NCBI RefSeq assembly: GCF_021917145.1
Contig: NC_061081.1
Span: 4,732,966 to 4,796,965 of the forward strand
Length of the DNA: 64,000 bases
Direction: 5' to 3'
Source: Hypomesus transpacificus
Lineage: Eukaryota; Chordata; Actinopteri; Osmeriformes; Osmeridae
A program made the translations under genes and the position numbers. The notes below the pieces were generated by a model. The model saw only the letters and a program-made list of their open reading frames with translations. It ran no database searches and was not told the DNA's origin. The stretch's first letter is position 1; each line of letters starts with the position of its first letter. This document shows, in pieces, positions 3,346 to 31,622 of this stretch.

Positions 3346-6265
3346 ATGAGTAATGCCCCTTATCTCAATATTACTTCATGGAATGTCAGGGGTATGAGAA
3401 AATTAGTTAAAATTAAACAAATACTGTCCAGACTTAAACACCTCCAAGCAAAAGTCATATTTCTCCAAGAAACTCATTTATTAACAGATGAGATTGTGCG
3501 CACAAGGAAGAGATGGCCTGGGCAAATTCTAGCTTCCTGCTGCTCTTCACAGGCAAGACGAGTAGCAATCCTTATCCATAAATCAGTCCCCTTTAGGGTT
3601 CACAAACTTCTTCAGGATCCTGCGGGTAGATTTGTGGTGGTTGGGGGAACTCTTTTGAATCAAGAAATTATTCTTGTAAATGTTTATGGGCCCAACAATG
3701 ACGATGTCACATTCTTTAGGAACCTCTTTATGACCATTTCCTCTTTTCGAGGTGAAATAATTATGGGTGGAGATTTTAATTGTGCTCCTAACCCTCTTCT
3801 AGACCGTTCATCGAGAAATGACTCCTCCCACACAAATACCCGAAGGGTGATAGGCCACTTCATGTCAGAGCTGCATCTTTGCGACATCTGGAGAATTAGA
3901 AATCCCACCACACTAGGATATTCATGCCACTCAAACACACACCAAACACAATCCCGCATAGATTATTTTTAAATCTCTGTGACTCTTGCGGCCAATGTAC
4001 AGGACTGTGGGCACAAAGGAATAGTTATTTCAGATCATGCCCTATTGTTTTTGCATTACCGCCCCACTTCACATGCCAGGGGCCAAACAGTGTGGAGGTT
4101 TAGCCCGAGATGGCTACATGATCAGAATTTTCTATACTTTGTGAAAACAAATATTGAGTACTTTGCTACAAATACAGATGAAACCTCAGCATCTATTAGA
4201 TGGGAAGCCTTTAAAGCTTATATTAGGGGTGTAATGATTTCTTATACTAGTAGCAATACAAATAAGACCCATCTCCTCATGACTGAACTTGAGCAAGGTA
4301 TTAAAGACCTAGAAAGGGAGCTCTCAGTGAATAATACACCGGAGAATCTACAGAGGCTCTCAGAATTAAGGGCTAAATATAATAATGTCACAGTAAGTAA
4401 GGCCTTAAACAGTATCACTCGGTTAAAGCAGACATATTATGATCAGGGAGAATCAGTGGGTAAATTACTAGCTTGGAGTATTAAAACACTGCAAAATGAA
4501 AGGGCTATCACTGAGATTGAAACTGAAAGTGGGATAACAACTAATCCAGCAGAAATTAACAGAGCTTTTCAAAAATATTATATGAACCTTTATACGTCAG
4601 AGTCCCTGGATACTAATGACCTACACCCCTTTTTGGATCATCTTACCATTCCAACTTTAGAGGAAAGGGTTAAAGAGGAGCTTGATTGACTTGATTACAA
4701 AGGACTGTTTGTAATGGGAGACTGTCCCAGACTATCCCGTTGGAAGCGCTGTCCCATATAAACGGAGGGAAAGCTTCCGGTCCTTCTGGTATACATTTAC
4801 ATTTAGTCATTTAGCAGACGCTCTTATCCAGAGCGACTTACAGTAAGTACAGGGACATTCACCCCGAGGCAAGTAGGGTGAAGTGCCTTGCCCAAGGACA
4901 CAACGTCATTTGCCACGGCCGGGAATCGATCTGGCAACCTTCAGATTACTAGTCCGATTCCCTAACCGCTTAGCCATCTGACTCCCTACATCCCTATACC
5001 CACTGACATCTACAAATGCTTTAAGGAGATTCTTGTGCCACCCCTCTTTGATATGTTAGTCAAATCAATTGAAGCAGAATATTTACCTCCCTCCTTATCA
5101 GAGGCTTTAATAACACTGATTCTAAAGCCAGATAAACCCCACATAAAATGTGGGTCATATCGTCCTATTTCACTAATAAACTCAGATGCTAAGATTATAG
5201 CAAAGGTGTTTGCGAGGCGTCTTGAAAACCATCTTCCCTCTCTGATCACCTCTGACCAAAACGGTTTCATAAAGGGTCGTCAAGATTTCCATAATATTCG
5301 AAGACTACTAAACATTATAGATGTGAGGAAGGAAAGCCCAGACACAGCAATAGTCTCCCTGGACGCTGAAAAAGCATTTGACAGGGTGGAACACAATTAT
5401 CTTTTTGAAGTGCTTCAGCGGTTTGGGTTTGGGGAATACATCTGTAAGTGCGTGAAAATGTTATATCACTCCCCAAGCGCGTCAGTCATGACAAATTTTC
5501 AAACCTCCCAACACTTCACACTCCAACGAGGGACCAGACAGGGGTGCCCCCTCTCGCCCCTTCTGTTTGCATTAGCAATCGAGCCACTTGCAATCGCAAT
5601 TAGACAAAACAGCAGTATAACAGGAATCACAACAGGGACTGTGGAGAATAAAATTGGATTATTCGCAGACAACAGTCTTGTTCCTGACCCAGCTAAAGTG
5701 CTCTATCCCAAATCTCCTTAGATTAATAAATACTTTTGGATCAATTTCAGGATATAAACTGAATGAATCCAAGTCAAACATCCTCTTTCTTAAACAATCA
5801 GAGAGAAGTTGTCCCCCAATACAAACCACATTTAAGAATACTTCTAGTTTTACTTATTTGGGGATCAAAATTACTCATTCAACAGAGGACCTTGTATCCA
5901 CTAACTATAGTCCAGTGATATCAGGAGTGACTAACCTGATTAACAGATGGACAACAATGCCAATTTCAATGATTGGCAGGATTAATATCCTCAAAATGAA
6001 TGTCCTACCAAAATGTCTTTACTTATTCCAATGCATACCACTTCCACCTCCAACAAACTTCTTCTCAAATATGACTAAAGTCTTCAGAAATTTCATATGG
6101 AGTAACAGACGAGCAAGATTACGCCTACTACAAGCCAGACGGACTATTGCAAAATGTTGGAAATCTTTACAGAGGCTGACTACCAAAGGCTGGCTAGAGG
6201 ACATTGTACAAGTTATAGCCATGGAAAAAATAACATATTCACTGAAAGGAAAATATGCAGTTTGA
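3346..6265 (+). pseudogene. LINE ORF2 endonuclease and reverse transcriptase, broken
   Basis: The N-terminal part has APE-type endonuclease motifs: ITSWNVRGM near the start, FLQETHL, GGDFNC and SRIDYF. An in-frame TAA at 3970-3972 interrupts it, and the same frame continues from 3979 with ISDHALL. After a stop at 4687 the frame changes. A SINE sits at 4795-4989 just after the GKASGPSG motif. The reverse transcriptase then follows from 5035 (SYRPISLIN, SLDAEKAFDRVE, RQGCPLSPLLFALAIE). The catalytic FADD box reads FADN, and a frameshift at about 5660-5720 moves the thumb region to another frame ending at 6265. The copy cannot encode an active enzyme. Confidence 0.8.
4795..4989 (-). mobile_element. 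tRNA-derived SINE (V-SINE-like), full length
   Basis: On the minus strand it begins with a tRNA-like head: A box in TGGCTAAGCGGTTAGGG and B box in GATCGATTCCCGG. The body contains CCTTGGGCAAGGCACTTCACC. The tail is GTCGCTCTGGATAAGAGCG followed by TCTGCTAAATG and a short ATG-rich end. The same unit recurs at 11890-12011, 17079-17262 and 25553-25741. The insertion splits the LINE ORF2. A short TACAT at both edges may be the target duplication. Confidence 0.8.
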
Positions 6266-15699: not shown

Positions 15700-17072
15700 A
15701 CACAAGCTCTTCTCCTGCCTGGCCCCCCAATGGTGGAACCAGCTCCCCACCTCCATCAGGGACACTGACTGTCTCCCCACCTTCAAGAAAACGCTCAAGA
15801 CACACTTGTTCCGGGAGTACAACGGCCCTTAGGAATGCTTGGCTGGACCTGATGTTAGTTTTCTCCAGGATCACAATGACTCTTATTGAGTGACTTGTTG
15901 CTCTTGTAGGTTAGTTATAATGAAGTTAAGTCTTGTACTCGCAGTGAAATATTTTACTGTTGATTGTTCTTCTACAGGTACAGCACTTTTTGTGGTTCAT
16001 GATGTTTTAATTTGTAACTTGTATAACTGCATGCTCTTATGGGTCTTCCCTTTGACACTTGTTTAGTTTTTTCACTATGTATGCTTCACAGGGCTCTCAA
16101 GTTTTGAAGACAGGCAAGAGTGACATTCTCAAGGACATTCAAGGGGTCAAAATTAATTAATGAATTGCTTTTTACCTGACATCTTTGAAAGGCAGCAATG
16201 ATTAATGCATCCATGGCCAGGATATAATAATAAAATATGACATTATTTTAAAAGTCAAAGGAATTGGGCCTATTTACATTCCGCACTGGGATCGATCCTG
16301 CCACCTTTGACTTCCCAAGCGGCGCCACTACCAACTACGCCAACGATAAGCTAGATAACCATTGATGCGGGTGGCGTTTTACTTACCTGACGAGTGAGTT
16401 TCACCGATAAACACCGGCTACATCTATGAACTACTTGTTCTGAGCAGGTGTTGTCAGTGAACAGGCTGTAAAACTGTTGGTTAAGAGACTCGTGAAAAGC
16501 TGATGCTAATTATCAGGGATTTTTTTTGTCAAGTTGTCATTGTTTGTGTCAAACAAGTTGTGAATTTGTTGTAACATTAAAACAGGAGATCATGACTGTG
16601 CTCAAAGTGATGCTTGAGCTCCAGCGGTTTGCTTTGTAGGTGAACAAAACTTTCGAAAAATTACAGGATATGCTTTTTTTCCATTGGTTGTTGCATTAAA
16701 TCTTACCCAGATACAATGGTGCTATTTTCCGATTGGCTATTGTATAGACCCTTTCTTTTTTTTGATGCCGGTTCCATAGTGAGAGTGGGGCGACCAGAGG
16801 AATTTTGGTTGGGTGCTGCGGCATATTAACTATATTATTTTAAAAAGAAATCGGCGTGAGAAATACAATGTGTGGCGGGAGGGCGTGACTAAAGACCGAA
16901 AAGAGTGACTGTCACTCTCAATGCGTGACACTTGAGAGCCCTGGCTTAATGTTTTGGCTGCTTGCAATGTTTGGGACTACCTCGTTGTTATGATCAGTGA
17001 CCTATGCTCTTTTGTAAAGCTCTCTCTCGGAAGTCGCTTTGGATAAAAGCGTCTGCTAAATGCATACATTTA
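15700..17072 (+). mobile_element. L2-type LINE 3' end, split by a MITE
   Basis: The 5' part encodes the L2 C-terminus ([21 protein letters not shown], then FREYNG). It is followed by the L2 3' UTR and the tail GAAGTCGCTTTGGATAAAAG with CGTCTGCTAAATG at 17035-17067. The UTR is interrupted at about 16090-16942 by another element. The same C-terminus and UTR occur in the larger L2 copy ending at about 42600 and in the fragments at 19868-20110 and 32459-32655. Confidence 0.75.
16090..16942. mobile_element. hAT-like MITE inside the L2 tail
   Basis: The termini are AGGGCTCTCAAGT and its complement ACTTGAGAGCCCT, with further inner matches (GAGTGACA against TGTCACTC). The flanks TGCTTCAC and GGCTTAAT are a weak 8-bp match. 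No transposase frame is visible. It interrupts an L2 3' UTR that continues on the far side. Confidence 0.6.
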
Positions 17073-17078
17073 AATTCA

Positions 17079-17262
17079 CATTTAGTCATTTAGCAGACGC
17101 TCTTATCCAGAGCGACTTACAGTAAGTACAGGGACATTCCCCCTGAGGCAAGTAGGGTGAAGTGCCTTGCCCAAGGACACAACGTAATTTGGCATGTCCA
17201 GGAATCAAACCGGCAACCTTCTGATTAATAGCCCGATTCTCTAACCGCTCAGCCATCTGATA
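17079..17262 (-). mobile_element. tRNA-derived SINE, full length
   Basis: It has the same structure as the SINE at 4795-4989 in the same orientation: tail CATTTAGTCATTTAGCAGAC first on the plus strand, central GTGCCTTGCCCAAGGACAC, and the tRNA-like head ending CCGCTCAGCCATCTGA. It abuts the L2 tail at 17035-17070, whose final bases are the same sequence in the opposite orientation. Together they form a natural inverted repeat. Confidence 0.8.
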
Positions 17263-20110: not shown

Positions 20111-20561
20111 TTATCTCACATATACAGTGCCCTCCAAAAGTATTGGAACAGTGAGGCCAATTCCTTTATTTTTGCTGTAGACTGAAAACATTTGGGCTTG
20201 ACATCAAACGATGAATGTGAAACCAGAGATCAACGTTTCAGCTTTTATTTCCAGGTATTTACATCAGGATCTGATGCACAAATTAGAAAATATCACCTTT
20301 TTGTTCGAACCCACCCATTTGTCACGTGAGCAAAAGTATTGGAACATATGACTGACAGGTGTGTTTTGTTGCCCAGGTGTGTCCTATTACATACATTATT
20401 CAATCAATAAATACCACTGAATGTCTACACTCAGGTTCAGATTGGGTAAGATAGGTTTTGTCTATGCAGACTGTATTCAGAGGTGAAAACAACATGAAAA
20501 CCGGAGCGCTGTCTTTGGGTGAAAAACAAGCAATTGTGAGTCTTAGAGAAGATGGAAAATC

Positions 20562-21276
20562 TATGGAGTTAGATTTGTTTCATAATTCAAACAAACAAAC
20601 GCAACACGATTCAAACAAACTTAACACGATCCAAACAAACGTAACACGATTCATACAAACATAACACGATTCAAACAAACAAACGTAACACGTTTCAAAC
20701 AAACGTAACACGATTTACAAATGTATTTCGTGATGCTTAAATGTAACGCGATTCACAAATAAATGACCCTATTACATTCGTTTGCAACCTGACAAACACA
20801 AGTTACAAATCCCTGCATTCGTTGGTGTGAATCCCTGCATTCGTTCGTGTGAATCCCTGCATTCGTTCGTATGGATTTTTGGAACTTTCCTGACGCGCTT
20901 AGATTCACAAATGCATTTTTTCTAAAAGATATCCTCTGCAGCCTATCAGATGTCTCCAATTTTAGCCAATCACATATGGACTACAACGACCTTACCCGCC
21001 ATAGTAACGGACTTGACATCACGAACAATGGCGTCTGGTGGTAGCCGCCCACCAAATGTAAGTGAAATATAGCTTGTTAATCTTATTAAACCGATTATCA
21101 TACGTGATTGAATATTCTTGAGAATGGCAGGATCCATGTTTAGTCATTTTAAGTGTTTCCTAGGCTAACGTTTAGCAAGCTAGCTAGTCAATGTCTAACT
21201 TAACCTGGGCTTGCTAGCTAACATTGATGGATACAGTACAGTACTGTACGATTGATGCATTAGTTTGCGGTCAAGC
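20562..21276 (+). repeat. Left TIR: binding-site array, promoter, first exon
   Basis: The outer 160 bp is an array of 7-8 copies of a unit of about 20 bp, AACACGATTCAAACAAACGT, a plausible transposase binding array. Next come three copies of a unit around AATCCCTGCATTCGTTCGTG (20810-20870). The inner half has a promoter-like stretch with CCAAT (20966-20970) and a CRE-like TGACATCACG (21014-21023). The ATG at 21028 opens a 30-nt first exon with a consensus donor GTAAGT at 21058. The repeat continues 219 bp into the intron and ends at 21276. Confidence 0.9.
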
Positions 21277-23926
21277 TAGGTGGAGTGTGGCAGGTCAAAA
21301 TAATAAAATTGTGTGGCAGTAGCTTGGTAGTTAAGCATTGGTAGCTAGAAATTTGTACAGTATAGCAGACATCTGAATGTTGGGATGGCCCATTCAGTTG
21401 AATTTAGGATAATATTCTGTCGAATTCTGAAGCACCTTATGTGTGTCTGTGCACTCATGTTTATTTGTTTGTCTGTCTGTCTATCTTTCCCTAGGATTCG
21501 CTGAAGTATTTTATTTTGAGAAGATTACATGATCGAGTTGTGCGGATCTTGGAAAGGCAACCTCTGGACCTAGATGGTCTACAGTTTGCTTGCCATCAGG
21601 AACATGTTTTGTTGAGCGCTCTAGCTGAAGTAGTAGTTGTACACGAGGACATACTCTCAGCACTCTCAGATCTTATTATTGCTATCCAGCAACAAATGGA
21701 AAGTCGGCAGACATTTGTGATTCTGGAATTTGAAAGAAGTTCTGGACGTGGCCGTCCAAGATTTACAATTTCAGAAGATGCACTCACACATCTAGTTGAA
21801 ATGGCTCTGCCTTTAAATATCATTGCCAAGCTTCTGGGTGTGTCTAGAACAACAGTACACAGGCGGATGAAAGAACTCAATCTATCTTTAAGGGCCTTAT
21901 ACAGTAGTTGCAGTGACAATGAATTGGATTATTTGATCACAGAAATTAAAAACACAATGCCAGATGCTGGTTATCGTGTTGTCCGAGGTGCTCTCCTTGC
22001 ACAGGGACACAAAATACAATGGGATAGGTTGCATGCGTCCATGCATCGCGTAGATAGTGTTGGTGTGTTCTCCAGGCTGACTGGTCTTGGATGTGTGGTC
22101 AGAAGAACATACAATGTTCCTTATCCAAAGTATTTGGTGCACATTGACACCAATCACAAGCTAATCAGGTATAACTGATTCATATCTGTATATCAATTTG
22201 TCAGTTTATTAACATGTAAAAAATTGTGTAGTTTGTATTTTGTATAACATCACTGTATGTCATATCATCGATAGACCATAGTAACCAGAACAGTATGAAT
22301 TTAACATTGTTCTAGAAACCATGAACCCATTTTTCTCTGCTAAGATGCAGATATTGTATCATGAGACCTATGCTGTTGAAAATGTTGTGTATTGTGTTTA
22401 AAAGACACTTAACAGTTGTTCATATACTGTTAAAGCTAATACAATTTATTTTAATAAAGGTACAACTTTGTCATCTTTGGGGGAATAGATGGCTACTCAA
22501 GGAAGGTAAGAATGCTTACTGTTGAATACCATCTTATACTATGTCTTAATCAAAATAAATGGAATGATCAACACTTTTCAGACGGATGCAACTTCCATTT
22601 GGGCATATGTTGTTTTGCTCGGGGCAGTGTAGTACAGAAATCTCTGTTCCTCATGTTGGATAGAAAACTGACCAATCAAAGTACTAACCTACTGTACTAT
22701 TTGTGAATGTATGTGAGGTTATGTATCTAAAGGTAGCAGACAATAACCGCTCTGACACACACGTGGCCTTTTTCACTGAAGCTGTCAATGAGCATGGTTT
22801 CCCTCTGAGGTATTCACATTTCAATTGTCATCCTTAGTATTATTGCAGAGGTCATCATAGAATTTAGATGTTCAGATATTAGTTTAAACCTAACATATCT
22901 TTTTAACATCATCGCCAATATGGAGCTATTCTTGTGTTTGTAATATTTGCACTACATAACTTTCAAAACTGTATGAGGCAATTTACATGTTATATTTTCA
23001 GAGTGAGAGGAGATCATGGAGGAGAAAACGTGGGAGTTGCTGAACTGATGTATAGAGTTCGTGGAACTGAAACCAACAGCTTCATTGCTGGAAAAAGCGT
23101 GCATAACCAACGGTGAGTTAAACCTAATTTTATGAAGAATTATATTGACAAAAAAGATTTCTGTTAACTGACCTCAATGATCCATTGCAAGACACATGGA
23201 TATTAAGTAATTGTAATGTAAATGCTTTTTTCCAATACAGAATTGAGCGCCTCTGGCGTGATGTGTTCATGAGTGTTACAGGTGTATATTACAACGCCCT
23301 GCACACTCTAGAGGATCAATACTTGCTCGATATCAGCAACATCCTGCACATGTTCTGCTGCCACTACGTTTTCCTGCCACGTATCCAGGCCAGCCTGAAT
23401 GTCTTCCATGAGGCCTGGGATAACCATCCCATTAGGACAGAGCAAAACCTGACACCAAATCAGTTGTGGCAGGTGGGCCAGGCCTTGAATCCCGTTGCAG
23501 ATCCTCTTCCTGAGGTAAATGGTGATTTGTTAAAACATCTAATTACCATAATGTCTTGTTAGTCATTTATAAATTAAAAACTGACACCCTAAAAGCCAGA
23601 ACTTTAAACCATAACCATTCATTGATCAGTTTTATACATGGTAGTGGTAATGGTTTCAGTTGGTTTACTTAACATTTGTTGTGCTTATATCTAATATCTA
23701 TCTTTGTCAGGCTATACTTGTACCAGAAGTCGAATGGGAGGAGAGCGTCTACATCAGTGAGCCACACCCTGGTGTCAATGTCCCTGTGCTGGACAGCCCA
23801 CTCTCAGATGAAGAAATGGTGCAACTTCAAGACGCCATTGAACCATTACAATACTCTGAAAGTTTTGGAGTTGACATTTATGTCAACACAGTCCAGTTTG
23901 TTGAGAATTTACTTGAGGCAAGATAA
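21028..23926 (+). CDS. DDE (rve/integrase-like) transposase, 7 exons
   Basis: Exons: 21028-21057, 21495-22168, 22460-22505, 22733-22809, 23002-23112, 23241-23514 and 23711-23926. All introns are GT-AG and the joined frame is 475 codons ending in TAA. Exon 1 ([10 protein letters not shown]) lies in the left TIR. Residues about 97-138 hold [12 protein letters not shown] and a helix-turn-helix ([20 protein letters not shown]) for DNA binding. The catalytic core has Asp228 ([10 protein letters not shown]), Asp280 (RGDHGGEN) and Glu315 (IERLW), i.e. D-51-D-34-E, as in retroviral-integrase and IS3-type enzymes. It is inferred to cut and join the element's own TIRs in the nucleus. The acidic C-terminus (last 70 residues) has no known motif. 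A variant poly(A) signal ATTAAA lies at 24037. Confidence 0.9.
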
Positions 23927-24036
23927 ATATAAAATGAAATAATAATTATAAGAGGGTCTGATAAATGACTGAAATGTAAATAATAATCATAAACATATCT
24001 TAATGAAACTGCATAGGTGGCTGTACATAGATAACT

Positions 24037-24042
24037 ATTAAA
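24037..24042 (+). terminator. Candidate poly(A) signal ATTAAA of transposase gene
   Basis: ATTAAA lies 111 bp after the transposase stop codon. The opposing gene's AATAAA (24094-24099, minus strand) lies just beyond it, so the two transcripts would end within about 60 bp of each other in a 358-bp space between stop codons. Inferred from sequence only. Confidence 0.5.
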
Positions 24043-24093
24043 CACCTGCTTGACGATCAGAAAACAGGATGTTTTGTCACCGGGAACTCTTTC

Positions 24094-24099
24094 TTTATT
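24094..24099 (-). terminator. Candidate poly(A) signal AATAAA of ligase gene
   Basis: TTTATT on the plus strand reads AATAAA on the minus strand, about 186 bp beyond the ligase stop codon. It faces the ATTAAA signal of the transposase gene at 24037. Confidence 0.5.
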
Positions 24100-24284
24100 A
24101 GCATAAGACAATTATTTGACAACACAATGTGAAAGACTGAAGTTATGCTACTCAGTGAACGATAAGGATATAACTTCTGCATTATTAGTTTTGTGTAAAC
24201 ATCTAACATTCTTAACATACTTATTTCACTCATGCTGACCTTATTTTGGCATCCATAAAAGATGTCCATAAAAGATGTGAAAAC

Positions 24285-27200
24285 CTACACTAGCCCAAAA
24301 CCACTATTGGTGCATCGGATACACATCGATAAGTCATCGTGGAACTTGATGTAGGTCCGGTAGTGGCTGGGAAGCTTCAATTTGGAGAAACAGGTGTGTG
24401 CTACTGGATAGGTAGAGGTCACAACCTCCACGATGAGGTTGGTAGTCAGCTGTTCCCACCCGACCCAGAACTTCACAAGGTCACGTAACACCTCTGGTGA
24501 TGCTACGAAGGAGAATATTGAATGTATGTGACATCTCCAATACATTTAATCAAAACGAACATTTTGAGCATAGCAAATTAACCAAAATGTCACATATTTT
24601 GCATTGATTTAAAATGTTACACTAAATTCTGTATAATATTATTATCTGTACAATGTCATCTCTGGCTGCACGATATCTGCTACTTTATCCCTTTATTAGC
24701 AGGGAACAACTGCTTCAAAATCCAATATAGGAAATTAATATTACCTTCCACAATGAATTTTCGTAAAAACTCAGTTATAAGAGTAACTGTCTCAAATGGG
24801 ACACAGTCTTCCTCATCCTGGTCGCTGTCAGATGTCGGTTTTGGCCAGCAAATGTTCTTGATCACAGTCTACAGGGTTAAAACATGTTTTATGTTATTAG
24901 TAAAATGATTCATGGCAGTTGCAGTTAATCAGCATGACTTTCTAACAACCAACCTTTATTATAAGGGATAATGTATAGAACGCCGGTCATTATCGGGAAA
25001 ATAAGCTCCGACAGGGCGAACAGCATCCCGACGCGAAGCGGAAGGACTTATTACACGGCTACTTGCTAAAGAAAATGCTACTTTTTACAATGTATTTGTT
25101 CCCATTCGTTGTGTTGATCAGCAGAGAAATAGTTCGCCAAAGACATTGAACTTCATAGAAATTAAACATTCTTTAGGCTTCAAATCAGCTGACGTCGCTT
25201 ATCAACGGAGTACGCTGGGGTTGAAAAGTTACCGGACTACTTGCGGAGTGCTACGAAAGACGTGAATAAGAAGCAAAAAGGCCACTTTCCTTGACAGCGG
25301 TCTGTTATTCATAGCAACGGTCTGTTATCAGAAGATATCAGACCGCAGAACGTTGGGAAGCCCCATTCAAGTGAATGGGGCATTCTACAGCGTTAAGAAC
25401 AGCCCTGTAATACTGATGTTTGACTATTATATTCTACCTTTAATGCTCCGGATCTGTCTTAACTTGCTTATGACTTCAACAACAAAGTTTACCTTTCTAA
25501 CAATGACATGAAAATGCTACACTATAATGTAGCACTATTTGTGCTTTTAAATGGCAGTCAGGTGGCTGAGCAGTTAAGGAATCAGGATAGTAATCAGAAG
25601 GTTGCCAGTTCAATTCCCGGCCGTGCCAAATAACGTTGTGTCCTTGGGCAAGGCACTTCACCCTACTTGCCTCGGGGAAATGTCCCTGTACTTACTGTAA
25701 GTCCCCTGGATAAGAGCATCTGCTAAATGACTAAATGTAACTGAAATTACCATGAGCTATGCTGCAGAACAATCATACAATTCAATTGCAGACAAATTGC
25801 ATTGTGTCATATAAACACAAATCCTTTCTAAACTAACCAAAGCAATGCTTACTTGCGCATCAAGCTCCTCATCTGCCTCCCGTGGGAAAATGATGGGGTG
25901 AACATCTGGTCTATCTGACAGAAGCGGCCAGATTCCTGTGTCTTTCAGGCCTTTCCGGATCTGTTTAATGGGTTGCGCAACACGATCAAGTACCTGCAGT
26001 GATGAATGACAGAACACAAGGCACAGGTACAAATGTGGCATGTGTTACACTGTCAACCTCCGATACAAATCAGAATGGGTTAGATGGTCATATTTCCATT
26101 TTAGTAATCTAAATAATAAAATGATTACTGCTTGTGTGAGCAGTTCTTGAAACAGCCAGTCATGATTGGTAGGTGAAGGAACCGGGAGATCCCAGGACAG
26201 GCAAAGATCAGTCACACTGGTGGTTTCTGCTGCAGTCATTTTTGCTTTTGTGAGCTAAAACACATGCATAAAAAAAGAAAAGAATATAATAATTGATGAT
26301 GCATGATTTAAAAGCTCATGTGAGAAAAACATGTCGCATTGTGATAAGCATATGACATTGGGACATTTAAGAATTTAGAAATGCTGCTACTCACAAGAGC
26401 AATTGTTTCGCGGTGATCTAGATCAGGACAGTCCTGCAGGGTCAGAGCGGATGCTGCAGTGTCCCTGTGTCTACCAGTCAAAAGTTTAACCACAGGAGAA
26501 CTGAGTCCTGAGAAACCAGGACCCCCATGCAGGACAGAGTGGCCAATCATCCGGCCTGCCATCTCAAACAGGTTACTTGCCCTAAGCACAGCAGCTGCGG
26601 AGGGAACCCGATGTTCTTTTTCGCCTTCAAAAAGGGTTGTGAGACCAGCAGAGCCTTAAGAGCAAAAATATGTGTTATCCCCAAATGTTTGTATTACATT
26701 CTAAAAGAATGTTAAATTAAAGCATTTTCTCTTGTGGTCTCTTCACAAACCTAGATTTATACTGAAACCAGTTTTCAGTTTTTGCATGACCAATGACAAA
26801 ACATGTCGGTTCACCCCTTCGCCAACAGCTGCATCTCCTTGAAAATAAATTATGACTTCAGATGAAAAACAAGTAACTACGAGATACAATACACAGTTAT
26901 TAAGAAACAGAATGCAATTTACATGATTAATAAAATAAATATCACACATTTTAGTAATACCTCTCAGATGGCACTTGAATGGAGCAGCCCAGTTAACATT
27001 GTTCATTTTATAGAACGAAATCAGCGAACTGTCCTGTTCTTCTGGTTCATCAAACATGTCGAGAGTGAGAGAGAGACGTCGATGTTCGGAGTTTCTGTCC
27101 AGTAGTTCTTCTCGGAACAGCTGACATGCTTTCCAAGGATCTTGTTTGTTCATATGTGCTGGCAATAAAATACAGTGTAAAATCAGTTGTTTTAAAAAAA

Positions 27201-29924
27201 CTTCCAAATTGCATTATACTCAGATTATATCATAAGGGTATAAATCACCTGCTGAGAGTTGTATGGACAGTCGTTGAACTGAGGGTCCTGGCAATTCCTC
27301 TCTCCTTGTAGGGCTGGCTGATTCGCTGTGAGTGATGCCCATTCTTAAGACAGACATAAAAACTTGTTACTTGCAAGAATGAAAAGACAAATCATGACTG
27401 AAACGCATCTTAACGTATTACGTCCTGCATATCATTTTCATCTAGCAAAGTCCTTCAAAATCACCTTCATATTTATATCCATTATGAATACTACTTTATT
27501 ACAAAGACGCAGCACGTGCATGCACCGATGCAGTCTAGAGCAGTAACATTGTAAGATATAAAAAACGAGCATTTAAAGCTTGGATTTAAAGTCAAGTTCG
27601 ACGTGACTTTTAATCATGCAATTTTTTATCTGAATCTATTAGTCATAAATATCTTACCTATCACCACACGTGCTTGCATGAGATAACAGGATATCAAATG
27701 GGTATGGTGTAAGACAAATTGGGCAAACCTGGAAAAAACAACATTCAATGGAATATTTTAATAAATTGTAATAAGAAGAAACCAAAGTGCTTATGTGGAA
27801 GGCATTACCTCAAAAGATACTCCCATCCCTTCTCTGGTCCCTGTGGTAGGTTCAACTGGCTGATCAATGACATGGCAATCTTCATCAAGACTAGCCCCAG
27901 GTGTATTGCCCTTAAAAAACAAAAGATTTGTAGATTTTCAAACAAACAAAAAATATGCATGTTTAATTGAGTAATAACAGAAGTGTTGCCGTACAAACGT
28001 ACAGTTATTGTGCCACTGCATTGTCCCACATGCAACGGCAAGAGCTGCAAGGGCATTTCACTACCACAGGTGATGCAGGTTGACTGTGGCATCTTTGAAA
28101 ACTCAGGTGAGTCATAAGGCAATGGCTCTGTAGATAGGTGCTCTTGTATTGGAACCATATAGATTGTGTTCTTTCCATTTTTTGAAGCTGCTTTTAACAC
28201 ACGTGTGGAGTAGCCTTCAGAGTCTATTGGAATAATTGTGAGCTTGCGACGCCCACTACCACCTGGTAAAAAAAAAAAAAAACATGAACAAAAAGATTTT
28301 CATTATTGGAGCTACTAAGTAGCCTTGTACAACCATTTGTACCACCTGTTCTCGTGAGGTCACATTCTGTTTCACGTCACAGACCAGGCTGGACTTGCAC
28401 ACGTTTTGTTTGGTAGTGGCATTGACAATGGGCGTTGAGAAAAGTTATTATGCAGTCTACTGGATCACACTACACAAATCCAAACAATTACACAGATGAT
28501 GGGTTCTGGAGACAGTCTAATACTTTCAGACTGACCTGTTGAGTGAAACAGAATGTGAGCTTGCGAGATCAGGATGGTTGTACGAGGTGATCTAGCAACA
28601 ACAGTGATAGAAATGCTACCTGTTCCCTTGGAAAACATCCATCCTCCTTTTAGGGTCTTCAGTTTAGAGTATTCATCCTCTACAAGAGACACAATCTAAA
28701 ATAATAATAAGTGAATACAAATGGCAAACACTATTCAGTAAGTCCCATTTTTAACAATTAGAATGATTGACTATTTAACATTATTGTATTATTTGTTTAC
28801 CTCACTGTGCTTCAAGTGGTCTGCTAGACTGAGCATCCTTTTACCAAGGCCAGCATGGGCAAATTCTATCTCTTCAGAGCCCTTTGGTGTATACAGGGTT
28901 GGTTCAGAAAGGACAAAAAAATGAAAGGCTGTACTTTTTACAGTGCAGGTGGAAGGGGTTGAGAACCGTCTTTTTCCTCTTGGCTGATCGGTATTAAACA
29001 TACTTGGGAACTGCCTGATGAGGGAGTGACAAAAAGATGAATGAAGAAAACAGCATTGATTTGCAATAATTGCTGAACTATTTCAATATGTTAATTAATT
29101 GCTTGAGGATCATAATGCCCTGATAGATAAACAGACAGGCACAGTCAGATTGTAAAATACATTAGCTATGACTTGGCAATTGCAGTTGGCAAATGCATTT
29201 ACAACAACACTTTCCCCTTTAACAACAATTATGACTCTTCAGGCACTGTTTTTCGAAAACATGATGGCGCTCAATTCGTGTGTAAGGAATTTCTGAAAGC
29301 CATGTGGGGGTTCGATAAACTAAGTGCTATCCAAATCGAATACATCTAGCTAACCTTGAATACTGATGCAGTGTTGGGTACTGTCTCCCATATAATGTAT
29401 AGCATTAATCCTTACCCACATACAGTGTATGTATTACCTTCTCATAGCCTGTCTCACCCTACTGTCAGTATTGGTGGCATTAGGTATGGTAGGGGCCATA
29501 GTTACAGCCCCAACTGTGCTCTCTGCTGCTCGGCTCTCTGCCATTGGGGAAATATTCCTAGCTAGGGCTTGCACAAGAACACGTGCTGCTGCCTCCACTT
29601 GATTTGACAGTCCCTGCTTTGGAAAACATCGTTTTAATTATCTGTTCACTAAAGTCCCATGTAAGATGTTACCTGGCTTGACCGCAAACTAATGCATCAA
29701 TCGTACAGTACTGTACTGTATCCATCAATGTTAGCTAGCAAGCCCAGGTTAAGTTAGACATTGACTAGCTAGCTTGCTAAACGTTAGCCTAGGAAACACT
29801 TAAAATGACTAAACATGGATCCTGCCATTCTCAAGAATATTCAATCACGTATGATAATCGGTTTAATAAGATTAACAAGCTATATTTCACTTACATTTGG
29901 TGGGCGGCTACCACCAGACGCCAT
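24285..29924 (-). CDS. Transposon-borne UBZ-HECT ubiquitin ligase, 15 exons
   Basis: Exons in transcript order: 29895-29924, 29438-29613, 28801-29014, 28536-28695, 28003-28262, 27809-27910, 27658-27728, 27249-27343, 26961-27158, 26751-26837, 26395-26654, 26129-26254, 25853-25993, 24745-24868 and 24285-24502. All are GT-AG; the joined frame is 753 codons. Exon 1 is the same [10 protein letters not shown] exon as in the transposase. Two zinc fingers share exact spacing: C256, C259, H271, C275 and C316, C319, H331, C335 (C-x2-C-x11-H-x3-C, UBZ-like ubiquitin binding). Residues about 370-753 resemble the HECT region of fish proteins named G2/M-phase-specific E3 ligase-like (G2E3-like): VLHGGPGFSGLS, then FWVGWEQL and AHTCFSKLKLP. 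C719, 34 residues from the end, fits the HECT catalytic Cys. Predicted role: ubiquitin transfer to an unknown target, perhaps the transposase or a host factor. AATAAA on this strand lies at 24094-24099. Confidence 0.88.
25553..25741 (+). mobile_element. SINE in intron 13 of the ligase gene
   Basis: It has the full structure: head GGTGGCTGAGCAGTTAAGGA, B box AGTTCAATTCCCGG, centre CCTTGGGCAAGGCACTTCAC and tail GGATAAGAGCATCTGCTAAA. It is the only secondary insertion I can define cleanly inside the 9.8-kb element. The neighbouring 24960-25400 (with CCCCATTCAAGTGAATGGGG, a perfect 20-bp palindrome) may be another short repeat. Both lie within an intron and leave the coding frame intact. Confidence 0.8.
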
Positions 29925-30390
29925 TGTTCGTGATGTCAAGTCCGTTACTATGGCGGGTAAGGTCGTTGTAGTCCATATGTGATTGGCTAAAATTGGAGAC
30001 ATCTGATAGGCTGCAGAGGATATCTTTTAGAAAAAATGCATTTGTGAATCTAAGCGCGTCAGGAAAGTTCCAAAAATCCATACGAACGAATGCAGGGATT
30101 CACACGAACGAATGGAGGGATTCACACCAACGAATGCAGGGATTTGTAACTTGTGTTTGTCAGGTTGCAAACGAATGTAATAGGGTCATTTATTTGTGAA
30201 TCGCGTTACATTTAAGCATCACGAAATACATTTGTAAATCGTGTTACGTTTGTTTGAAACGTGTTACGTTTGTTTGTTTGAATCGTGTTATGTTTGTATG
30301 AATCGTGTTACGTTTGTTTGGATCGTGTTAAGTTTGTTTGAATCGTGTTGCGTTTGTTTGTTTGAATTATGAAACAAATCTAACTCCATA
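29676..30390 (-). repeat. Right TIR: mirror copy with promoter and first exon
   Basis: This is the reverse complement of 20562-21276 over its whole 715 bp. It therefore carries the same outer repeat array, the same promoter-like stretch and the same first exon (ATG at 29924 reading left, donor after 29895). Here the exon is spliced to the ubiquitin ligase gene rather than the transposase. One substitution was noticed at the middle CCCTGCATTC repeat. Confidence 0.9.
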
Positions 30391-31622
30391 AAAATCAATC
30401 AGAGCCATTGCAGAAACATTGGCCATAGCCAGTACAACCATTTGGAATGTCCTGAAGAAGAAAAAAACTACTGGTGTACTAAGTAACAGACGTCGAACAG
30501 GTAGACCAAGGAAAACATCAGCAGTTGATGACAGAAACATTGTGAGAGCTGTAAAGAAAGACCCTAAAACAACTGTTAGTGAGATCAGCAACAACCTCCA
30601 GATGGCAGGAGTGAAGGTATCACTATCTACTGTTCGCAGAAGACTTCATGAACAAAAGTACAAGGGCTACACCAGAAGATGCAAACCACTCATTAGCAAG
30701 AAGAATAGGAAGGCCAGGCTGGAATTTGCCAAAAAGTACAGAGATGAACCTCAAAAATTCTGGGACAAAGTTTTATGGACTGATGAGACAAAGATTAACT
30801 TTTACCAAAGTGATGGAAAGGCTAAAGTTTGGAGAAAGAAAGGAACTGCTCATGATCCCAAACACACAAGCTCATCTGTGAAACACGGTGGAGGTAATGT
30901 CATGGCTTGGGCTTGCATGGCTTCTTCTAGGACGGGCTCATTAATCTTCATTGAGGATGTAACACATGATGGCAGCAGCAAAATGAACTCGGAAGTCTAC
31001 AGAAACATTTTGTCTGCCAATTTAAGGAAAGATGCAACCAAACTGATTGGCAGAGCCTTCATCATGCAGCAAGATAACGACCCAAAACACACTGCCAAAA
31101 CAACAAAGGAGTTCATCAGGGGCAAGAAATGGAAGGTATTAGACTGGCCAAGTCAATCTCCAGACTTAAACCCTATAGAGCATGCATTTTACCTGCTTAA
31201 GAGGAGACTGAAGGGAGGAACCCCACAAAACAAACAACAACTGAAAGAGGCTGCAGTGAAAGCCTGGGAAAGCATCAAAAAGGAAGAATGCAAAAGTTTG
31301 GTGACGTCAATGGGTCACAGACTTGCTGCAGTTATTGAAAGCAAAGGATTTGCAACTAAATATTAAGTCTTATTCACTTAAATATGTTTTAAGTATATCT
31401 GTTCCAATACTTTTGCTCACATGACAAATGGGTGGATTCAAACCAAATGTGATATTTTCTTAGTTGTGCATCAGATCCTGATGTAAATACCTGGAAATAA
31501 AAGCTGAAACGTTGATCTCTGGTCTCACGTTCATTATTTGATGTCAAGCCCAAATGTTTTCAGTCTACAGCAAAAATAAAGGAATTCGCCTCACTGTTCC
31601 AATACTTTTGGAGGGCACTGTA

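Follow-up and report, generated by a model that had tools for sequence, protein, structure and literature searches.

IS3EU transposons, in Repbase since 2013, have TA..TA ends and usually 6-bp target duplications, as described in the available text of PMC10045372. In rust fungi and truffle, the IS3EU elements that bear TET/JBP genes carry an alpha-kinase gene opposite the transposase with TET/JBP between the two, and TET/JBP genes move between fungal transposon superfamilies (PMC12730594, sections available). Ginger1 transposases contain OTU or Ulp1 domains, and the authors proposed a role of the ubiquitin pathway in transposition (PMC2836005, sections available). Here we describe an element at positions 20,562 to 30,390 of a 64,000-nucleotide stretch of the Hypomesus transpacificus genome (NC_061081.1, positions 4,732,966 to 4,796,965 of the forward strand; hereafter the window) which, judged by its ends, its target duplication and its transposase, is an IS3EU-type transposon, and in which the transposase gene faces a gene predicted to encode a HECT-type ubiquitin ligase.

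Like the IS3EU/GingerRoot elements of PMC10045372, this element has an IS3/IS481-like DDE core, TA..TA ends and 6-bp duplications, and lacks an HHCC motif before the core; in contrast, the main text of that paper contains neither HECT nor ubiquitin, and the window element is set apart by its ligase gene and by the repeats of this kind of element, which are 720-850 bp long and within which both genes have their first exon. It shares TAYGG..CCRTA ends, 6-bp duplications and a second enzyme gene opposite the transposase with the fungal TET/JBP elements as covered in PMC12730594, but the enzymes there are an alpha-kinase and TET/JBP instead of a HECT ligase. As in Ginger1, an integrase-like transposase is tied to ubiquitin/SUMO chemistry; however, the proteases of Ginger1 lie within the transposase and would remove the tag (PMC2836005, same sections), whereas the product of the separate gene described here would add it. 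No published HECT ligase in a DNA transposon was found in a search outside which lie the Repbase and Dfam entries, the original GingerRoot paper and most subscription journals, all of which may note the gene, and the available text of a killifish study on IS3EU abundance makes no mention of HECT or ubiquitin (PMC12763893).

A convergent gene pair between near-identical inverted repeats

A sequence-only reading of this locus had proposed a complete two-gene transposon, pairing an integrase-like transposase with a HECT ligase. The ends, the target duplication and both gene models confirm this proposal, and the main features are as follows.

20562..30390: IS3EU-type transposon, 9,829 bp, with ends TATGG..CCATA
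20562..21281, + strand: left terminal inverted repeat, 720 bp, starting TATGGAG, enclosing the first coding exon of the transposase gene with its start codon and the region upstream
29671..30390, - strand: right terminal inverted repeat, enclosing the first coding exon of the HECT ligase gene with its start codon and the region upstream
20556..20561, no strand: target site duplication AAAATC, left copy
30391..30396, no strand: target site duplication AAAATC, right copy
21028..23926, + strand: transposase gene, 7 exons, 480 amino acids
21028-21057, 21495-22168, 22460-22505, 22718-22809, 23002-23112, 23241-23514 and 23711-23926, + strand: exons of the transposase gene
24285..29924, - strand: HECT ubiquitin ligase gene, 15 exons from 29895-29924 down to 24285-24502, 725 amino acids

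The inverted repeats are long, as had been noticed, with a length of 720 instead of 715 bp, and they are identical at 718 of 720 positions (2 mismatches). The exact 6-bp duplication was correctly read, AAAATC being present on both sides. The family name, which had been given as IS3EU-like, agrees with the TA..TA ends and 6-bp duplications described in PMC10045372 and with the TAYGG..CCRTA pattern given in PMC12730594, both available in part. For the two genes, the proposed exon counts and matching phases stood while the lengths did not: the transposase has 480 amino acids, not 475 codons, a difference that would fit a later splice acceptor of exon 4 dropping VMYLK, and the ligase has 725 amino acids, not 753 codons. 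In both exon models, predicted from the sequence, all introns are GT-AG and all phases are consistent.

The transposase contains an rva_4 integrase core (Pfam, E-value (E) 2.4e-72) with the catalytic triad D228, D285 and E320 (D-56-D-34-E), preceded by a helix-turn-helix-like region at about residues 107-143 whose Pfam matches are below their cut-offs. NCBIfam models for IS481 (E 4.9e-11) and IS3 (E 2.5e-7) were matched far below the curated cut-offs set for bacterial members, which weakly suggests kinship to these transposases. Upstream of the core, the Pfam search found no integrase zinc-binding family or HHCC motif and returned only sub-cut-off helix-turn-helix-type matches, and the PDB search gave no solved structure at E up to 1.

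On the opposite strand, residues 457-724 of the ligase form a HECT domain (Pfam E 6.4e-13, 49.4 bits against a curated cut-off of 23.9), with C691 as predicted catalytic cysteine and a C-terminal end GFGLV, and two CCHC motifs lie upstream of it (C228 C231 H243 C247 and C288 C291 H303 C307). HECT ligases need a phenylalanine four residues from the C-terminus. The C-lobe with its catalytic cysteine and terminal phenylalanine is shared with AREL1, HUWE1 and SMURF2, in contrast to the strongly divergent N-lobe, the upstream CCHC motifs and the encoding by a transposon. G2E3 and the fish "G2E3-like" genes encode HECT ligases with a zinc-binding N-terminal part, made of PHD fingers in G2E3. By this description the window protein resembles them in joining a HECT domain to a zinc-binding N-terminal part, but no PHD finger was found in its 725 residues, HECT being the sole Pfam match at E up to 1. 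A fold prediction of exon 5 alone gave a mean predicted local distance difference test score (pLDDT) of 45 and was not used.

The start codon, 30 coding bases and the GTAAGT donor of both genes are located inside the inverted repeats (21028-21057 and 29895-29924). Since the start codon and exon 1 fall within near-identical repeats, transposase and ligase have near-identical upstream sequences and the same first ten residues. In the related elements C14 and C6 a different ATG exon with a GTAAGT donor is again identical in both repeats; the aligner used it for the transposase model, and it would serve the ligase in the same way. In the C22b element, both repeats contain a short ATG-initiated open stretch and a GTAAGTA donor, a candidate only. 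Such a layout was not seen described for IS3EU in the available parts of PMC10045372 and PMC12730594.

Recurrence of the pair in the same genome

Other copies with the same ends, the same exons and their own 6-bp duplications, of the kind that the sequence-only reading had named as support, are present in the genome, where the inverted repeat has at least 76 matches. C18 (duplication TCGGAG) and C23 (duplication CTAACT) are complete copies, and C4 lacks 175 bp of one end. Concerning the possibility, raised at the same time, that copies bounded by the same repeats consistently lack the ligase, both genes are intact in all four near-full-length copies (window, C18, C23 and C4), with no stop or frameshift and the same exon counts. 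These four copies differ by 0-0.83% per class of site: C18 and C23 by no more than 0.21% in any class, and the window copy from these two by 0.21-0.83%, indicating that the family moved recently. Two decayed copies were also observed, C15b with parts of both genes interrupted by stops and frameshifts, and C15a with part of the ligase only. Short palindromic non-autonomous derivatives of the inverted repeats exist as well: of the 20 fetched, 19 retain both ends, at a spacing of 0.85-1.12 kb, and 17 are flanked by a 6-bp duplication, exact in 16 cases and with one mismatch in the other. The idea that these derivatives of about 1 kb spread the promoter and the first exon was rejected, the exon with its donor (up to 5 substitutions allowed) being found in 0 of 20.

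Beyond this family, the ligase search of the genome gave 88 exon matches, grouped into 22 loci. An rva_4 locus lies within 8 kb at 16 of them, always in convergent orientation; a 17th, C29, has a decayed transposase detected by tblastn, convergent too, and the remaining five are C15a and four short fragments. We also used a Pfam-model search, which does not start from the window element (150 listed of 151 matches per family). Because 150 of 273 rva_4 and 129 of 175 HECT candidates were scored, its locus counts are lower bounds. The matches listed merge into at least 69 HECT loci and at least 98 rva_4 loci, and 31 of these 69 HECT loci have an rva_4 neighbor no more than 8.5 kb away (29 of them no more than 3.6 kb away). 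All 31 pairs are convergent, while 0.26 pairs are expected under random placement, and the total rises to 36, all convergent, when C15b, C22b, C21b, C7 and C29 are added. The 38 HECT loci left unpaired comprise 33 with multiple exon matches, presumably host genes, and 5 with one match. The sequence-only reading had suggested that some of the many fish genes annotated as G2E3-like ligases may belong to this element family; for the HECT genes of this genome, the numbers (31 of the 69 HECT loci found) support a transposon origin of many. It had also called the ligase cargo; the gene does lie inside the element, but the word is too weak for a pair that recurs at 31 Pfam loci and 36 in total. From this recurrence, the ligase appears to belong regularly to elements of this kind instead of having been picked up by chance.

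The transposase was opposite the ligase in 8 of 12 related regions fetched. The C6 element is 11.2 kb long, with repeats of about 847 bp and duplication ATACAT; C22b is 9.7 kb long, with repeats of about 800 bp and duplication CTCTAC; C14 has long repeats and has lost one outer end. Together with the window, C18 and C23, this makes five two-gene elements with both ends, all five with TATGG..CCATA termini following the TAYGG..CCRTA pattern and all five with exact 6-bp duplications. The transposases of C14 and C6 are 57-58% identical to that of the window and that of C22b 38%; the pair is kept in elements down to about 40% protein identity. Transposase models are intact in C14 and C6, the ligase models having one frameshift (C14) or one stop and one frameshift (C6), and C22b has stops in both genes.

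The predicted catalytic cysteine is kept at all 12 loci with a residue aligned there, 6 more of the 18 loci having no residue aligned. Eleven of the 18 loci retain the two CCHC motifs in full. In the five-family ligase alignment, from which C6, C7, C21b and the broken C143 were left out, the first CCHC motif is invariant along with the HECT catalytic residues in all five families, as are T469-C470 and G500-F501-G502, and the Pfam HECT model was matched at E up to 0.1 in all five family members scanned.

Three further observations concern the distribution of these elements. Five copies of the C14 family lie within about 160 kb (C14:3071788-3230590), four in the same orientation and one inverted, which suggests local or segmental duplication; one of the five was fetched and the other four are placed from match coordinates. 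An unusual layout was seen at C8:12320001-12329000, where the gene of a ligase-free rva_4 transposase extends into one arm of an inverted repeat longer than 1 kb. In viral contigs, 2 and 3 pattern matches were obtained, none related by tblastn.

Insertion site and other features of the element

20494..20561, + strand: Tc1-type transposase gene, 5' part, at the insertion site
30397..31366, + strand: Tc1-type transposase gene, 3' part
20585..20714, no strand: tandem repeats near the end, five units of some 20 bp each (AACACGATTCAAACAAAC and variants), putative binding sites of the transposase
24037..24042, + strand: ATTAAA poly(A)-like signal past the transposase gene, by eye
24094..24099, - strand: AATAAA poly(A)-like signal past the HECT gene, by eye

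The open reading frame to the right of the element matches HTH_Tnp_Tc3_2 (E 5.7e-25) and DDE_3 (E 8.4e-14) in Pfam, and when the flanks are joined with a single AAAATC a 345-codon open frame of a Tc1-type transposase gene is regained, indicating that the element interrupts this gene. The subterminal tandem repeats are mirrored at 30238-30367. Inside the element, 358 bp separate the ends of the two convergent coding regions, and, from the position of the poly(A)-like signals, the two transcripts would terminate tail to tail. A repeat at 25556-25743, in the intron preceding the penultimate HECT exon, resembles by eye a short interspersed nuclear element and has further copies in the window, e.g., at 4794-4983 and 17068-17260; it travels with the element, since the C18, C23 and C4 copies align across it.

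Age of the pair and possible role of the ligase

We favor the interpretation that this is an autonomous cut-and-paste transposon of IS3EU type whose core, in this branch, consists of a DDE transposase and a convergent HECT ligase, and we consider it probable. Besides the recurrence described above, it is consistent with the common history of the two proteins. Trees of transposase and ligase from eight elements have in common the starred pairs C14+C6, C29+C7 and C21a+C143 and show no starred conflict, and the distance matrices of the two proteins across six families are correlated (r = 0.63; 5 of 720 relabellings gave a correlation at least as high). The correlation was calculated on six of the eight elements, leaving out C6 (a near-copy of C14) and C7, which has 75 columns in the ligase; poor alignment excluded C21b from both the trees and the correlation. 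Between families, the proportion of nonsynonymous differences (pN) is 0.29-0.44 for the transposase and 0.30-0.39 for the ligase, versus 0.73-0.82 for synonymous ones (pS). Read from these sequences, the ligase is an old second gene in this IS3EU branch.

Several points weigh against this interpretation. Synonymous sites between families are saturated, so that the ratio of nonsynonymous to synonymous rates (dN/dS) is a bound only. Between C14 and C6 this ratio is 0.48 for the transposase (8 changes) and 0.85 for the ligase (76 changes, the C6 ligase being decayed), and among sister copies pN/pS ranges from 0.24 to 1.54 on at most 10 changes, too few for a selection test. Both ends were found in just 2 of the 12 related regions (C6 and C22b). 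The second CCHC motif is complete with the first at just the 11 of 18 loci mentioned, and is unaligned in C21a and C143. Among the matches listed, 67 of the 98 rva_4 loci lack a Pfam-HECT match at distances up to 8.5 kb, although many of these rva_4 matches are short and four of the 67 loci are nevertheless paired in the exon-match grouping of 22 ligase loci; in addition, tblastn with six ligase queries found no ligase at C26 and C8, two unpaired loci with long transposase frames. Thus the ligase is not universal among rva_4 elements. The transposase tree places C26 and C8 among the ligase-bearing rows, on the C21a+C143 side, and the ligase label then needs two changes on this tree, one change being also possible. 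Splice sites, shared promoter and joint expression are all read from sequence, and all relatives come from one genome.

The mixture of ligase-free and ligase-bearing rva_4 elements in the tree is what would be expected if different IS3EU lineages had independently and repeatedly acquired related HECT genes, in the way TET/JBP genes, which pass between fungal transposon superfamilies, were acquired (PMC12730594, sections available). Such repeated acquisition appears improbable given the convergent arrangement common to all 31 Pfam pairs, the invariance of the first CCHC motif and HECT catalytic residues in five of five families and the trees without starred conflict. Recent capture of a cellular HECT gene, carried as passive cargo and bound to decay, has in its favor that gene capture is common in other DNA transposon superfamilies; it is very hard to reconcile with a pair that even relatives of about 40% protein identity possess, always in convergent order, with the constraint between families and with the intact state of all four near-full-length copies. 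Passive recent cargo was therefore rejected on the age, recurrence and convergence of the pair. The HECT domain itself is divergent, the best solved structure being found at E 0.016 with the single sequence and 0.00028 with a profile, as might be expected of an enzymatically dead protein with a structural or repressor role. This explanation is hardly more probable than repeated acquisition, since the window protein scores above the cut-off of the Pfam HECT model, all five family members scanned match this model at E up to 0.1, none of the 12 loci aligned at the catalytic cysteine lacks it and the phenylalanine four residues from the end is kept in five of five.

A more serious alternative concerns not the presence of the ligase but its function, namely a self-limiting control in which it would ubiquitinate the element's own transposase or the transposase-DNA complex, either clearing the complex after strand transfer or capping copy number. 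ClpX clears the Mu complex after strand transfer. The shared repeats would tie ligase output to transposase output, and the agreement of the two trees in the starred pairs is expected of partners that touch each other. Yet self-restraint is hard for selection acting on the element to keep, tree agreement follows from plain linkage too, and binding of the two proteins is conjectural; we regard self-limitation as possible, at roughly one chance in three. A host silencing or repair factor is our leading candidate as substrate, tentatively and somewhat short of an even chance, with the transposase or its DNA complex placed below it as a reasonable second. The host factor is preferred because the accessory enzymes retained in other transposons are considered to target modification systems of the host (TET/JBP, PMC12730594; OTU/Ulp1, PMC2836005; both from the sections available) and because constraint between families with little among sisters is what is expected from selection at invasion.

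Under the favored interpretation of a two-gene core, and because the two repeats are near-identical, the same promoter in both would drive both genes, so that transposase and ligase would be made together, and transposase bound to the repeats could feed back on both genes at once. The transposase would bind the repeats, possibly through the five 20-bp subterminal units, excise the element and join it to a target with a 6-bp stagger, while the ligase, guided by its CCHC motifs and N-terminal half, would ubiquitinate proteins at the transposition site. If this function helps the element to establish in a naive genome, constraint would be seen between families with little visible among sister copies.

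Enzyme-carrying transposons are known, with TET/JBP and alpha-kinase in fungal IS3EU (PMC12730594) and OTU/Ulp1 in Ginger1 and others (PMC2836005), as far as the available sections of these papers go. That the ligase has been kept as a second gene over so deep a divergence suggests that transposition, or else escape from silencing, includes a ubiquitin-dependent step, which the four near-identical natural copies make testable, and a first exon within an inverted repeat is a simple route to co-expressing two genes. We would give about even chances to the wider proposal that, in this branch, transposition or invasion requires the ligase as a second enzyme, that the repeats provide one promoter and one N-terminal tag, and that close to half of the HECT loci found are transposon-borne and may form a reservoir of new host ligases. 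HECT gene counts in such a genome are inflated by mobile DNA, 31 of the 69 loci found lying beside a transposase, and surveys of HECT expansion should mask such elements first.

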